A DNA stretch of 64,000 bases, from the NCBI RefSeq assembly GCF_000092025.1, contig NC_003063.2, forward strand, positions 806,001 to 870,000, given 5' to 3'. The translations under genes and the position numbers were made by a program. How positions within the stretch are numbered: the first letter of the stretch is position 1; each line of letters begins with the position of its first letter. Below the pieces are notes generated by a model. The model did no database searches and was not told the DNA's origin. It saw only the letters and a program-made list of their open reading frames with translations. This DNA is from Agrobacterium fabrum str. C58. GTDB taxonomy: Bacteria; Pseudomonadota; Alphaproteobacteria; Rhizobiales; Rhizobiaceae. Positions 7,637 to 53,270 of this stretch are shown here, piece by piece.

Positions 7637-7879
7637 GTTTAGCTCTTTGGGCTGTTGAACGGCACGTCGCGGTTTTGGCCGCAGCGCCCTTTATGTAAAA
7701 GGGCATGACAGACATACCAATCCGGATAATAGGCAATTGTTCCGCCATTGCAATGACAGCAATATAAAAAAGCCATGCCCGGCAGCAGTGAAAAATAACT
7801 GTCGACGAAAAAATAATCAGGCGAAGGACCGGGGTTGACCCGAAACTTCAAGTGCGATCCGCGGCGACCGATGGAGATT

Positions 7880-8022
7880 TACGATCCTGGGTGCCTACAA
7901 AAGTAGGTGGGCGCCGTGTGTCCAGTCCCACAGGACTGGCCAGGGACAGCTCCCTTTGGATCGAGTATGGCCCCAGGGATTGTGGTTCCTGTCGGGAAGC
8001 GCAGAACGCATTCCAGATATAG
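7880..8022 (-). ncRNA. ssrS: 6S RNA
   Basis: The stretch 7637-8087 holds no protein gene, but its minus strand folds as a long interrupted rod. The closing stem pairs 8008-8018 with 7884-7894 (AUCU-GG-UGC against GCA-CC-GGAU with small bulges). The distal hairpin CCAGTCC-TGTG-GGACTGG lies at 7922-7939. 6S RNA mimics an open promoter and sequesters sigma-70 RNA polymerase. The position between zapA and the 5-formyl-THF cyclo-ligase region is the classical bacterial context of this gene and the strongest argument. Exact ends are uncertain by about 10-20 nt; TATAT at 8017-8022 could be the -10 box. I see nothing else in 7637-7879. Confidence 0.75.
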
Positions 8023-17146: not shown

Positions 17147-18436
17147 ATGAGCAGAAATCTTCTACCCGTATTCGCTCTTTTATCCAGCACTCTGTTTCTT
17201 TTTCTCGGCAACGGCCTTCAGGGCCTCATCCTGCCGATGCGCGGCTCGGCGGAGGGTTACTCCAATGAGATTCTGGGCTTCCTCGGCACCTCCTGGGCGG
17301 CAGGCTTTGTCATCGGCTGCTTCGTCGCCCCGGCCATCGTGCGCCGCGCGGGGCATGTGCGGGCGTTTGGTTCCTTCGTCGCGCTCGTCTGCCTGACGGT
17401 GCTGATGACCGGCCTCGTCGTCGATGACGTCTGGTGGATCACACTGCGCGCCCTCACCGGCTTCTGCACGGCCGGCACCTCCATGATCATCGAAAGCTGG
17501 CTGAACGAACGCGCGACCAATGAGAGCCGCGGCATGATCTTTTCCCTCTATATCGCCATCACCCTGCTTGGCGTCGTGGCGGGGCAGATGATCGTGCCGA
17601 TGGGCGATGTCAGCAATACCTCGCTGTTCATGATCTGCGGTATCATCTATTGCATCGCCATTCTGCCGGCGACGCTCTCCAAGGCTGCCAGCCCCCAGCC
17701 CTTGCAGAAGGTCAAGCTGGATCTACCCGCCCTATATCGCAACTCGCCGGTCTCCTTCGTCGGCATCCTGATGATCGGCATCGCCAACGGCGCTTACGGC
17801 ACGCTCGGTGCCGTCTTCGGCGCAAGGGCGGGGCTGGACCCAACCATGATCGCCATCATGGTTTCCGTTACGATCTTCGTTGGCGCGCTTGCCCAGTTCC
17901 CGGCGGGTCGTCTTTCGGACCGGATAGACCGCCGATACGTCCTTGCCGGACTGGCGGGGTTAGGCGCGGTCGCGGGCCTTGCCGTTGCAGCCGTGCAGCC
18001 GCACGAAGTCTATGTGCTCATCCCCATGATCGCCATTTACGGTGCCGCTGCCAACGCGCTCTATCCCATCGCGGTGGCCCATGCCAACGACTTTGCGGCA
18101 TCGGAAGACTTCGTCAAGGTATCCGGCGGGTTGTTGCTGCTTTACGGCATCGGCACCATCATCGGCCCGACGCTTGGCGGCGCGGTCATGACCTATTCCG
18201 GCCCCTATGCGCTCTTCTTCGTGACGGCCGTCGCCCATGTGCTGATAACGGCCTATGCCATCATCAGAAGCCGCCAGCGTGCCGCCCTTTCGACCGCGGA
18301 AAAGGACAATTTCTCGACGATGATGCCAACGACGCCCTCGCCGCTGGTAACGCCGGAGAGTATTGCGCTTGACCCGCGCGCGCCGCAATATCCAGGCGAC
18401 GACGGCGACTATGTGGAAAAAGGAGCAGGCATATGA
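17147..18436 (+). CDS. MFS transporter (YcaD-like)
   Basis: 429 residues with about 12 hydrophobic segments and the major facilitator repeat structure. The second half contains GRLSDRIDRRYVLAGLAG near residue 255, the typical loop between helices 8 and 9, and WWITLRALTGFCTAGTSMIIESWL is seen near 105. The substrate is unknown; the YcaD group is uncharacterised. The last ~40 residues are a polar cytoplasmic tail. Its stop overlaps the start of the DUF1192 gene by four bases (ATGA), so the two form a coupled pair. Confidence 0.9.
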   Translation: MSRNLLPVFALLSSTLFLFLGNGLQGLILPMRGSAEGYSNEILGFLGTSWAAGFVIGCFVAPAIVRRAGHVRAFGSFVALVCLTVLMTGLVVDDVWWITLRALTGFCTAGTSMIIESWLNERATNESRGMIFSLYIAITLLGVVAGQMIVPMGDVSNTSLFMICGIIYCIAILPATLSKAASPQPLQKVKLDLPALYRNSPVSFVGILMIGIANGAYGTLGAVFGARAGLDPTMIAIMVSVTIFVGALAQFPAGRLSDRIDRRYVLAGLAGLGAVAGLAVAAVQPHEVYVLIPMIAIYGAAANALYPIAVAHANDFAASEDFVKVSGGLLLLYGIGTIIGPTLGGAVMTYSGPYALFFVTAVAHVLITAYAIIRSRQRAALSTAEKDNFSTMMPTTPSPLVTPESIALDPRAPQYPGDDGDYVEKGAGI

Positions 18437-18624
18437 GCCTCTTTGATGATGATCGTCCGCAGAAACCCCGCGGACATGAAATCGGCAGCGATCTCAGCCT
18501 TCTTTCGGTGGACGAGTTGAGCGATCGAATCGAACTTTTGCGGGCAGAAATTGCCAGGCTTGAGGACGAGAAAAAAAGGAAGTCCGCTGGCAGACAGGCG
18601 GCGGAGAACCTGTTTCGCTCCTGA
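18433..18624 (+). CDS. DUF1192 family small protein
   Basis: 63 residues: SLFDDDRPQKPRGHEIGSDL followed by LSVDELSDRIELLRAEIARLE, a conserved helix, and a Lys-rich end. The family is restricted to alphaproteobacteria and has no known function; the helix suggests a dimer or docking segment. Its ATG lies inside the MFS stop codon (ATGA), with GGAGCAGGC as ribosome site. Confidence 0.88.
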   Translation: MSLFDDDRPQKPRGHEIGSDLSLLSVDELSDRIELLRAEIARLEDEKKRKSAGRQAAENLFRS

Positions 18625-18724
18625 CCTGAGGCTTTAATAAACTGGGGCAAGACCGGCCGAACGACATGCCGGGAGTGTAAACGCTAACCAGATTAAAGAT
18701 TCTGGCGCAGTCTTTCGTTTACCA

Positions 18725-18739
18725 TTAACCAAAAATTAA
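18725..18739. promoter_or_regulatory. CtrA full box TTAA-N7-TTAA, site 1
   Basis: The sequence matches TTAA-N7-TTAA exactly (TTAACCAAAAATTAA), the established binding motif of the cell-cycle regulator CtrA. The downstream half lies about 17 bp before a possible -10 box (TACTATA at 18754-18760), the layout of CtrA-activated promoters. The target would be the small RNA that follows. Confidence 0.7.
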
Positions 18740-18763
18740 GCTTTCTGAGAGATTACTATACAT

Positions 18764-18863
18764 GTCCAGTTCTTCTGGACCTCAGGCATCTTCTCCATAC
18801 GGCGAATTGGTCTGATTTTTCTCCCTGTTTTACCTTGAGAGCCGCTTTCGCGGCTCTTTTTTT
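18764..18863 (+). ncRNA. Candidate CtrA-controlled small RNA
   Basis: A stretch of about 100 nt between DUF1192 and rcdA has the makings of a trans-acting RNA. A 5' hairpin GTCCAG-TTCTT-CTGGAC lies at 18764-18780, followed by an unstructured middle with a pyrimidine-rich TTTTTCTCCCTGTTTT able to pair with Shine-Dalgarno regions. A strong intrinsic terminator (GAGCCGC-TTTC-GCGGCTC plus seven T) lies at 18839-18863. The promoter would be at site 1. No start codon with a ribosome site is seen inside. The 5' end is estimated; the terminator alone could instead end a longer transcript of the MFS/DUF1192 operon. Confidence 0.55.
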
Positions 18864-18895
18864 GCCGGTCGCCGGAATTCGTAAAACTGTGGGTA

Positions 18896-18910
18896 TTAAC
18901 CCTTCTTTAA
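18896..18910. promoter_or_regulatory. CtrA full box TTAA-N7-TTAA, site 2, upstream of rcdA
   Basis: A second exact match (TTAACCCTTCTTTAA) lies 117 bp before the rcdA start and just after the small-RNA terminator. RcdA serves CtrA proteolysis in Caulobacter, and there CtrA controls rcdA, so a regulatory loop is expected. Confidence 0.7.
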
Positions 18911-19026
18911 TAATTGCCTTGCGCATTTCAGGTAAAGATACCATCCTGAAAACACTAAAGGCCGGAACAAAATATCCCGGTCGTCGTTGCCTGACAGTGT
19001 GGTGCGTGAGCAGGGATTTAAAGAAA

Positions 19027-19542
19027 ATGTCGGAACAGGTTTTAAATACCATAAGCTTTGCGGGTCGCGCGGCTGCTTCCAACCAGTTCAAGACCCTCTA
19101 TACTGAAGGCATGACCTTGGTCGAGGAAACGGCAAGCTATCTCGATGGCGGCGGCCGCACGGCTTCCAAGGTTCTGCCGCGCATGGCATCTGTCCTTTAT
19201 GCGGCGGAATCGATGCGCCTTACTACCCGTCTGATGCAGATGGCATCCTGGCTGCTTTTGCAGCGGGCTGTCAACAATGGCGAAATGACGCGCGATCAGG
19301 TTCTGAGCGAAAAAAACAAGGTGCGGCTCGACAGCTTCAACGTTGACCGCAACGCGCCCGGCTGGAACGACCTGCCGGAATCCTTCCGCGACCTTATCGA
19401 ACGGTCGCTGCGCCTCCAGAACCGCGTCGCACTGCTCGATCGCGAAATCTATCGCCCAGCGGAAGCGACCAAGGTGCCAGACAACGAAAACAGCGTACAA
19501 GCGCAGCTCAACCTGCTGCGCACGGCTTTCTCGATCAACTGA
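19027..19542 (+). CDS. rcdA: RcdA, regulator of CtrA degradation (DUF1465)
   Basis: 171 residues from the ATG at 19027 (MSEQVLNTISFAGRAAASNQF), preceded by AAAGAAA; a longer frame from 18835 would run across the terminator and the CtrA box and is rejected. The protein is helical and matches the DUF1465/RcdA family (SKVLPRMASVLYAAESMRLT near residue 55, NDLPESFRDLIERSLRLQNR near 115). In Caulobacter RcdA is the adaptor that, with CpdR and PopA, brings CtrA to the ClpXP protease at the cell pole. Two CtrA boxes lie upstream. Confidence 0.9.
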   Translation: MSEQVLNTISFAGRAAASNQFKTLYTEGMTLVEETASYLDGGGRTASKVLPRMASVLYAAESMRLTTRLMQMASWLLLQRAVNNGEMTRDQVLSEKNKVRLDSFNVDRNAPGWNDLPESFRDLIERSLRLQNRVALLDREIYRPAEATKVPDNENSVQAQLNLLRTAFSIN

Positions 19543-19570
19543 GAAAAGACGACTATATCCGGACGATTTG

Positions 19571-19598
19571 AAAAGCAGGCTCACCGGCCTGCTTTTTT
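19571..19598 (+). terminator. Terminator after rcdA
   Basis: The stem AAAAGCAGGC / GCCTGCTTTT with a 6-nt loop ends in a run of T. Confidence 0.87.
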
Positions 19599-19642
19599 GT
19601 TTTGGCCGTTACAGTCACTAATACCGCAGCGAAAAGCAGGCA

Positions 19643-19675
19643 ACAAAAAAGCCCGGTAAAACCGGGCTTTTTTTA
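19643..19675. terminator. Bidirectional terminator between rcdA and rpmE
   Basis: AAAAAAGCCCGGT / ACCGGGCTTTTTTT with an AAA loop can act on both strands; it is most likely the rpmE terminator. Confidence 0.87.
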
Positions 19676-19695
19676 AACAATCCGTCCGCAAGGAA

Positions 19696-19917
19696 TCAGA
19701 GGCCGAGGCCGCCGAAACGCTTGTTGAACTTGGAAACGCGACCACCACGGTCCATAAGCTGCTGGTTGCCGCCCGTCCATGCCGGATGGGACTTGGGGTC
19801 GATTTCAAGGTTCATGACTGCGCCTTCCGAACCCCAGGTAGAGCGGGTTTCGTATTCGGTGCCATCGGTCATGACGACCTTGATCGTGTGATAAGCGGGA
19901 TGGATATCAGCCTTCAT
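19696..19917 (-). CDS. rpmE: 50S ribosomal protein L31, zinc-free form
   Basis: 73 residues starting [19 protein letters not shown], a clear L31. It has no cysteine at all, so it is the C-minus form lacking the zinc ribbon of E. coli RpmE, while a basic C-terminus ([12 protein letters not shown]) remains. L31 bridges the ribosomal subunits. It is monocistronic between a bidirectional terminator and the ABC-exporter promoter region. Confidence 0.97.
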
Positions 19918-52851: not shown

Positions 52852-53270
52852 GAAACGATGCTGTCACATAAAATAAAATTCAATACGATTTGTTGAACGA
52901 TTTACGGTCGCTCTTTGCAAGCATAGGACAATTCCGTGCCAAATTGAAACGTATTAATCTTCGCATATTAGAAATATTTTGCGGTTACGGCGGGTCCGCA
53001 CGGCAATCCGCATCGGTGCAATTCTGGGCGCCAGTTCGCTCGGCAGGCGCAGCTGAATTTTCACCCACGCCCCAACGCCGAAATCCCCGCCGATCTTTAT
53101 CAACTGTTAACCATAAAAAACCTATTGTTAAAGCGATGTTAAAACTTGCGTCGGCTGTCTGGTCCCTGGTTTCTTCACGTCATTTCATCAGCCTGCCAAT
53201 CATCGGGTCTGAAGAGATGCCTTGGTGGACTTTCGATCCGGCATCGGCCAAACTCGCCGGGTGAAAAGGA
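52852..53270 (+). other. Divergent intergenic region before the outer-membrane barrel gene
   Basis: This 419-bp gap contains no convincing gene; an open frame at 52890-53264 starts with two TTG codons, has no ribosome site and shows no familiar sequence. GTTAACCAT near 53106 resembles a CtrA half site and the AT-rich stretch around 53105-53150 is the likely promoter. Confidence 0.45.

Follow-up and report, generated by a model that had tools for sequence, protein, structure and literature searches.

The interval between a DUF1192 gene and rcdA, which encodes an adaptor for CtrA proteolysis, holds two exact matches to the full CtrA box, TTAA-N7-TTAA, and between them the elements of a small RNA. 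The locus raises the question of what this RNA is, whether CtrA governs it and whether it acts on the adaptor gene beside it. Coordinates refer to the window, the whole 64-kb stretch of DNA that was analysed. The upstream neighbour (18433..18624, + strand) was assigned to DUF1192 by PF06698 (E 2.2e-23). The rcdA gene (19027..19542, + strand) matched PF07323 and the NCBIfam equivalog NF051867, ‘protease adaptor protein RcdA’, with 213.1 bits against a cut-off of 170. Beyond rcdA follows the gene of ribosomal protein L31 (19696..19917, − strand; PF01197), a conserved neighbour present in 21 of 30 loci selected by the RNA.

Box 1 (TTAACCAAAAATTAA, 18725..18739) is located in the predicted promoter of the small RNA. 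The hexamer ATTACT at 18752..18757 (+ strand) is likely the −10 element of this promoter and is kept in the alignment anchored on box 1. A scan of the DUF1192-rcdA interval for a sigma-70 consensus promoter gave no match. The RNA of 100 nt (18764..18863, + strand) is delimited by a predicted start and by the last U, and is covered by Rfam and nhmmer matches. Its elements on the + strand are, in order, hairpin 1 (18764..18780), hairpin 2 with a C-rich loop (18782..18815), a single-stranded linker of 21 nt (18816..18836) with CUCCCUGUU at 18821-18829 as a possible anti-ribosome-binding-site stretch, and a 9-bp intrinsic terminator with its U tract (18837..18863; terminator found at 18837-18858). 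The region 18763-18863 folds with −36.5 kcal/mol (z = −5.03), and none of 200 shuffled sequences folded as well. Exact matches and the fold confirmed in place the two boxes, the 5′ hairpin, the C-rich single strand and the terminator that the sequence-only reading had described.

Covariation supports hairpin 1 by a single pair. It changes from A-U to G-C in 19 of 52 Rhizobiaceae rows and is paired in all 52, against a shuffle maximum of 47; the remaining pairs of the hairpin show little or no excess over their shuffles in the same rows. Hairpin 2 is absent from the consensus fold of the 52 rows and was recovered as a hairpin in 37 order-level rows. The terminator hardly varies in the Rhizobiaceae rows, and some double changes appear in the order-level rows. 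The linker motif CTCCCTGTT occurs in 107 of 109 family loci and in an altered form in L107 and L124. An Rfam search and an alignment across Rhizobiales had been named beforehand as checks on the RNA. They yielded a family, RF02356, and the covariation of hairpin 1, but the consensus for Rhizobiaceae did not sustain hairpin 2.

Rfam RF02356 (BjrC1505) matches the window at 18718-18863 with 36.5 bits (E 1.4e-4 in 3 kb), which is below the curated cut-off of 50 bits. At the Rfam gathering threshold, 6S RNA was the only match in the window. In the lineage of the window, the first ~45 positions of the RF02356 model fall on the CtrA box and the promoter; because they cover promoter DNA, the 5′ end of the model seems too long for this lineage. 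An nhmmer profile of 37 relatives from outside Rhizobiaceae matches the window at 18757-18866 (E 1.2e-6). It also matched 109 of 110 family loci at E ≤0.1, 103 of them at 1e-3, and the 109 best matches are all on the RNA. The missed locus, L119, ends before the RNA and was omitted from the family counts; L207, with a one-mismatch box 1 ahead of the RNA, was omitted from the consensus fold and from the profile.

Of 150 genomes sampled from the order, 126 gave an RF02356 match, 107 of them above the cut-off; the figures are 96 of 121 genomes for the window's family and 25 of 240 for the class. Fourteen control genomes, including Caulobacter vibrioides, gave no RF02356 match. The model also has no match in G193 and G219, though their rcdA loci (Ensifer; L077 and L080) do carry the RNA. 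Among the order genomes searched for both, 101 hold the RNA together with rcdA. In 98 of these the RNA is upstream of rcdA, shares its strand and is at most 1,500 nt away, with a median gap of 221 nt between the two model matches. In the three exceptions, RNA and rcdA are on separate contigs of fragmented assemblies. These counts uphold the rcdA neighbourhood pointed out from the window alone.

The RNA is not a new candidate, as the sequence-only reading had presented it, but belongs to a known family. In S. meliloti, sm84 was predicted in 2008 between SMc03988 and SMc03989 on the same strand, gave Northern and microarray signals and was aligned with A. tumefaciens C58 (PMC2573895). The same paper reports a Northern band of ~80 nt, not 100, and a predicted sigma-70 promoter. 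Sequencing gave 100 nt for SmelC671 (PMC2873474). The SmelC671 family is described as having two variable hairpins, the last of them the terminator, around a conserved single strand with CUCCCUGU; its relatives reach Bradyrhizobiaceae, and the R. etli member is ReC71 (PMC3927594). Expression of SmelC671 was assigned to nodule zone II (PMC7143759). The window RNA agrees with this description in its length of ~100 nt, the single strand between hairpins, the terminator and the same-strand neighbours, and no essential difference from sm84/SmelC671 was found. In S. meliloti 4H41 (L070), a 100-nt RNA extends from ATCC to the last T before rcdA. BjrC1505 shares the place upstream of rcdA, the linker and the terminator. 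Judged from sequence, the window RNA is orthologous to sm84/SmelC671 of S. meliloti, is likewise linked to rcdA and belongs to RF02356 as a divergent member. The identity with sm84/SmelC671 rests on size, motif, order and neighbours because the comparison locus is that of strain 4H41, not 1021. With the S. meliloti relative detected, the claim of a separate small RNA holds. A paper linking BjrC1505 to SmelC671 was not found in the open literature searched, in which BjrC1505 is named only in a list.

GspR (SmelC775) and EcpR1 (SmelC291) are rhizobial trans-acting sRNAs on cell-cycle mRNAs. Both were rejected as orthologs and are encoded at other loci than the window RNA: GspR between SMc03844 and SMc03845, and EcpR1 after divK-pleD. 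GspR is ruled out since SMc03844/5 tolerates insertions, whereas rcdA, beside which the RNA is found in S. meliloti (L070), is essential in that species (PMC4433202).

The position of box 1 argues for activation by CtrA. Full CtrA motifs near −35 accompany activation in predivisional cells of Caulobacter, and positions of −39 and −14 are given for a promoter read as activated and one read as repressed, respectively (PMC4287350). Relative to the predicted sRNA start, box 1 has its 5′ base at −39, within the −35 to −39 range of CtrA-activated promoters. In the sRNA promoter, a full CtrA box would thus replace the −35 element, followed by a conserved −10. With this architecture, phosphorylated CtrA most likely switches the RNA on at high CtrA levels. 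A sigma-70 promoter was predicted for sm84, so CtrA is not necessarily essential for the RNA.

The number of boxes carries little of this argument. Three exact TTAA-N7-TTAA sites are present in the window, against 0.11 expected from shuffles. The whole genome (5.67 Mb) has 50, about one per 113 kb, and no genome-wide enrichment was found, the pattern read backwards giving 57. Box pairs within 171 bp are expected by chance about 0.07 times genome-wide, and the genome list contains two further close pairs besides the one beside rcdA. Since the genome total is not above that of the reversed pattern, the evidence is the pairing and conservation of the boxes, not their count.

Conservation was determined in family loci picked by the RcdA protein alone, so that the RNA could not bias the sample. 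They comprise the best 30 of 119 genomes with a match and 79 of 80 further loci, and include Sinorhizobium, Rhizobium, Agrobacterium, Shinella and Neorhizobium; hence the term Rhizobiaceae. The 109 loci have 106 distinct upstream stretches, and with four pairs from the same records (L041/L083, L048/L080, L049/L077 and L056/L136) about 105 are independent. Box 1 was counted only at 75-115 nt before the linker motif. At this place it is exact in 74 of the 109 loci and has at most one mismatch in 101; eight loci are without a match at this tolerance. Its distance to the linker motif is 90-98 nt in 99 of the 101. Among the 74 exact boxes, 48 different spacers occur, with half-sites and 7-base gap unchanged, as expected if two half-sites are selected in the way that CtrA recognises them.

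Control motifs were counted at the places of box 1 and box 2 in the 109 loci: one and two occurrences of the reversed motif, 15 and seven of ATTA-N7-ATTA, none and eight of TTTT-N7-AAAA, and none at all for four other rearranged motifs. The ATTA-N7-ATTA occurrences at box 1 are probably the same boxes shifted by one base. In 79 loci, the 39.5 kb before rcdA contain 133 boxes; the remaining 389 kb contain none but are mostly coding, so that the contrast is a generous one. A further sample covered 20 more distant loci within the family (ranks 31-50). The linker was recognised in 15 of them, all of which have box 1 with at most one mismatch, 14 of these being exact. In each of the other five, an exact box precedes the rcdA match by 111-151 nt. 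Both the activating distance and this strong conservation uphold the earlier claim of a CtrA box at the promoter, and CtrA activation of the RNA is strongly suggested by the promoter sequence.

Box 2 (TTAACCCTTCTTTAA, 18896..18910) most likely has a different history. It precedes the predicted rcdA promoter CTTGCG-N17-CCATCC (18918..18946, + strand), of which CTTGCG and the ATCAT region are kept in 109 loci. It begins at about −57 relative to the predicted start of rcdA, with the −35 element left intact, which fits CtrA binding without an effect on rcdA. Box 2 is exact in all 109 of the closest family loci and in 19 of the 20 more distant ones (14 of the 15 with linker). Outside the family, 28 order-level loci picked by PF07323 all have box 1 with at most one mismatch (exact in nine); none has an exact box 2, and five have one-mismatch sites. 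Two Rhizobiaceae members within the order-level PF07323 set have both boxes exact. Thirty order loci picked by the RNA gave the same picture, with box 1 at up to one mismatch in all 30 (exact in 15) and box 2 exact in none and with one mismatch in five, in a sample that is biased because the Rfam model spans box 1. Twelve class-level matches, also picked by the RNA, all have a site with at most one mismatch near the promoter. rcdA is within 700 nt downstream in six of the 12 (L242, L243, L246-L248 and L250) and weakly in a seventh, L253. Box 1 is the older site and goes with the sRNA, since it is kept outside the family, in loci that lack an exact box 2. Most likely the window's family acquired box 2 along with its rcdA promoter.

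Two loci, L263 (G164) and L265 (G265), keep the exact box on the rcdA side, and the best Rfam match to the RNA is elsewhere in the genome. They are a natural separation of the two boxes. In the window (18888-18924), as at the corresponding place in 109 relatives, box 2 is embedded in the unusually conserved TGTGGAGATTAACCCTTTCTTAAGAA, followed by the consensus CTTGCGC. This conservation exceeds the need of a CtrA box, and another factor may bind there.

Genomes without rcdA bear on the link between the RNA and its neighbour. PF07323 had no match in 10 of 121 genomes, and three of these (G017, G050 and G120) keep the RNA. The full box before it is exact in L234 and has one mismatch in L237 and L238. 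All three stretches adjoin the L31 gene, and L237 and L238 also adjoin the DUF1192 gene. G017, which has no PF07323 match, carries two RNA copies (L234 and L235), each with an exact box. In G131 the RNA (L236) has an exact box and no rcdA within the stretch. The reverse case, rcdA and no RNA match, was found in 10 genomes. The data point to INDEPENDENCE from rcdA: the RNA and box 1 do not need the gene, since both are kept in rcdA-less genomes. Second, low-scoring copies in G097, G024 and G049 (L239-L241) were not counted; a box with at most one mismatch is absent from L239 and L241, and L240 has one with one mismatch.

The preferred reading, with a probability of roughly 70%, is that the 100-nt sm84/SmelC671/BjrC1505 RNA is CtrA-activated, acts in trans and pairs with ribosome-binding sites. 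The RNA would end at its own terminator, and rcdA would have a separate downstream promoter, with the second CtrA box in the window's family. The C-rich single strand, together with the loop of hairpin 2, would pair with G-rich ribosome-binding sites of mRNAs. Anti-ribosome-binding-site stretches are described for other rhizobial sRNAs (PMC7143759), and CUCCCUGUU resembles them; pairing with mRNA starts is therefore the likely mode of action. Pairing of the CUCCC stretch with ribosome-binding sites in general is plausible. Sites complementary to the linker are not in excess in the genome, with 41/45 against 44/45 for the reversed pattern and, for the 8-base core, 41/39 against 36/31. Among 29 complement sites checked for nearby starts, none was tied to a cell-cycle gene, the ORFs being without family naming.

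The nearest candidate target is rcdA, and the sequence-only reading had proposed a feedback module. As a closed loop, the CtrA-driven RNA would pair with a ribosome-binding site, either that of its neighbour rcdA or that of ctrA, and thereby tune the destruction of CtrA. Tight synteny speaks for it, and so did the first pairing scores. The linker pairs with the rcdA start at −22.4, ahead of all others among 50 gene rows compared in the window, the next of which reaches −19.3; a longer reading of rcdA itself accounts for one row. Against crude first-ATG controls, rcdA is best in its own locus in 68 of 101 loci, with a median of −14.8, compared with −8.6 over 380 control starts. Shuffled leaders were tried in 106 loci (L077, L080, L083 and L119 were skipped); in 43 of them, no more than 5% of the shuffles reached the pairing of the rcdA leader. 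With starts fixed by homology, most of this excess was lost. The family medians are −14.1 kcal/mol for rcdA (87 starts), −12.65 for L31 (56), −13.35 for DUF1192 (92) and −14.1 for ctrA (29); in the order set, DUF1192 (−16.1, n=32) even exceeds rcdA (−14.8, n=40), with L31 at −12.55 (34). The printed rcdA leaders share no motif that is visible by eye. rcdA, promising at first, was accordingly set aside as a target; ctrA does not stand out either, its median being equal to that of rcdA and near those of other genes. Pairing of CUCCC with either site is little or no better than with control genes. The persistence of RNA and box without rcdA also disagrees with a closed loop, as does S. meliloti, in which the available text of PMC4433202 reports no significant change of rcdA upon CtrA depletion by microarray or follow-up tests. 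Feedback through RcdA is therefore unlikely, and the first interpretation of the locus is partly supported.

It is decidedly improbable that both boxes serve rcdA, with box 1 as a distal control site and the RNA as an attenuated rcdA leader or the 3′ end of the DUF1192 transcript. Start mapping in three agrobacteria gave several starts for rcdA (atu3742), where a CtrA site was also predicted, and the authors assign these starts to rcdA (PMC10469942). One of these starts may be that of the sRNA. A strong terminator separates box 1 from rcdA, a 100-nt transcript was sequenced in S. meliloti (PMC2873474), box 1 holds its distance to the RNA, and box and RNA are kept where rcdA is absent; all four disagree with a leader. 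The weakest alternative, that box 1 represses or binds another regulator of AT-rich sites such as MucR, CtrA not being the main controller, can draw on the presence of MucR at many CtrA target promoters in Caulobacter (PMC4287350) and on the lack of a promoter class for SmelC671 in a review table (PMC7143759), yet is very improbable given the activating position at −39 (PMC4287350) and the constant half-sites and gap around variable spacers.

CtrA activation of the sRNA offers a simple reason for a puzzling binding site. In S. meliloti, CtrA ChIP-seq has a site at the rcdA promoter region (PMC4433202), and the box of the sRNA would explain why CtrA is bound there without a response of rcdA. 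SmelC671/BjrC1505 is very widely kept in Rhizobiales, and neither a controller nor a target was found in print in the open papers searched. The conserved CtrA box at its start would place the RNA in the cell-cycle circuit, a directly testable prediction. The available text of PMC3927594 and PMC2573895 does not mention CtrA for sm84/SmelC671, and none of the open papers searched was found to state that CtrA controls this RNA. While the RNA family is known, it is probably an overlooked CtrA output.

A broader view is evenly balanced between true and false: the RNA would be an ancient direct output of the CtrA switch in Alphaproteobacteria, older than the CtrA box of rcdA in Rhizobiaceae, and a working counterpart of CcnA in Rhizobiales and neighbouring orders. 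Under this view, CtrA ChIP signals booked to ‘rcdA’ would belong at least partly to the sRNA. CcnA of Caulobacter crescentus is likewise noncoding and combines a CCCC loop with a predicted CtrA site (PMC8959179). It differs in that it is transcribed from the region of the replication origin and has ctrA and gcrA as targets (PMC8959179). Its authors, in the portion of the paper available, did not clearly detect a homolog in S. meliloti (PMC8959179).

Several minor features of the window were recorded. The third exact TTAA-N7-TTAA box, at 53128-53142, precedes by ~130 nt an ORF whose product has a beta-barrel porin domain (PF10082). Two hairpins with many weak matches to Rfam leaders occupy 19573-19669, where rcdA and the L31 gene converge; they are most likely terminators. 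Matches to suhB and other Rfam families near 18785-18871 and 19544-19750 were weak, below the cut-off, and were rejected. The 6S RNA (RF00013, 81.4 bits) is encoded at 7852-8010 on the − strand, 10.8 kb from the sRNA. In S. meliloti, the two RNAs have a similar order and orientation, 6S RNA being on the other strand, ~12.4 kb from the RNA on the same contig in 4H41 and ~14.2 kb in 1021. A. vitis (L120) differs, with 6S RNA ~14 kb from the RNA but on the same strand.
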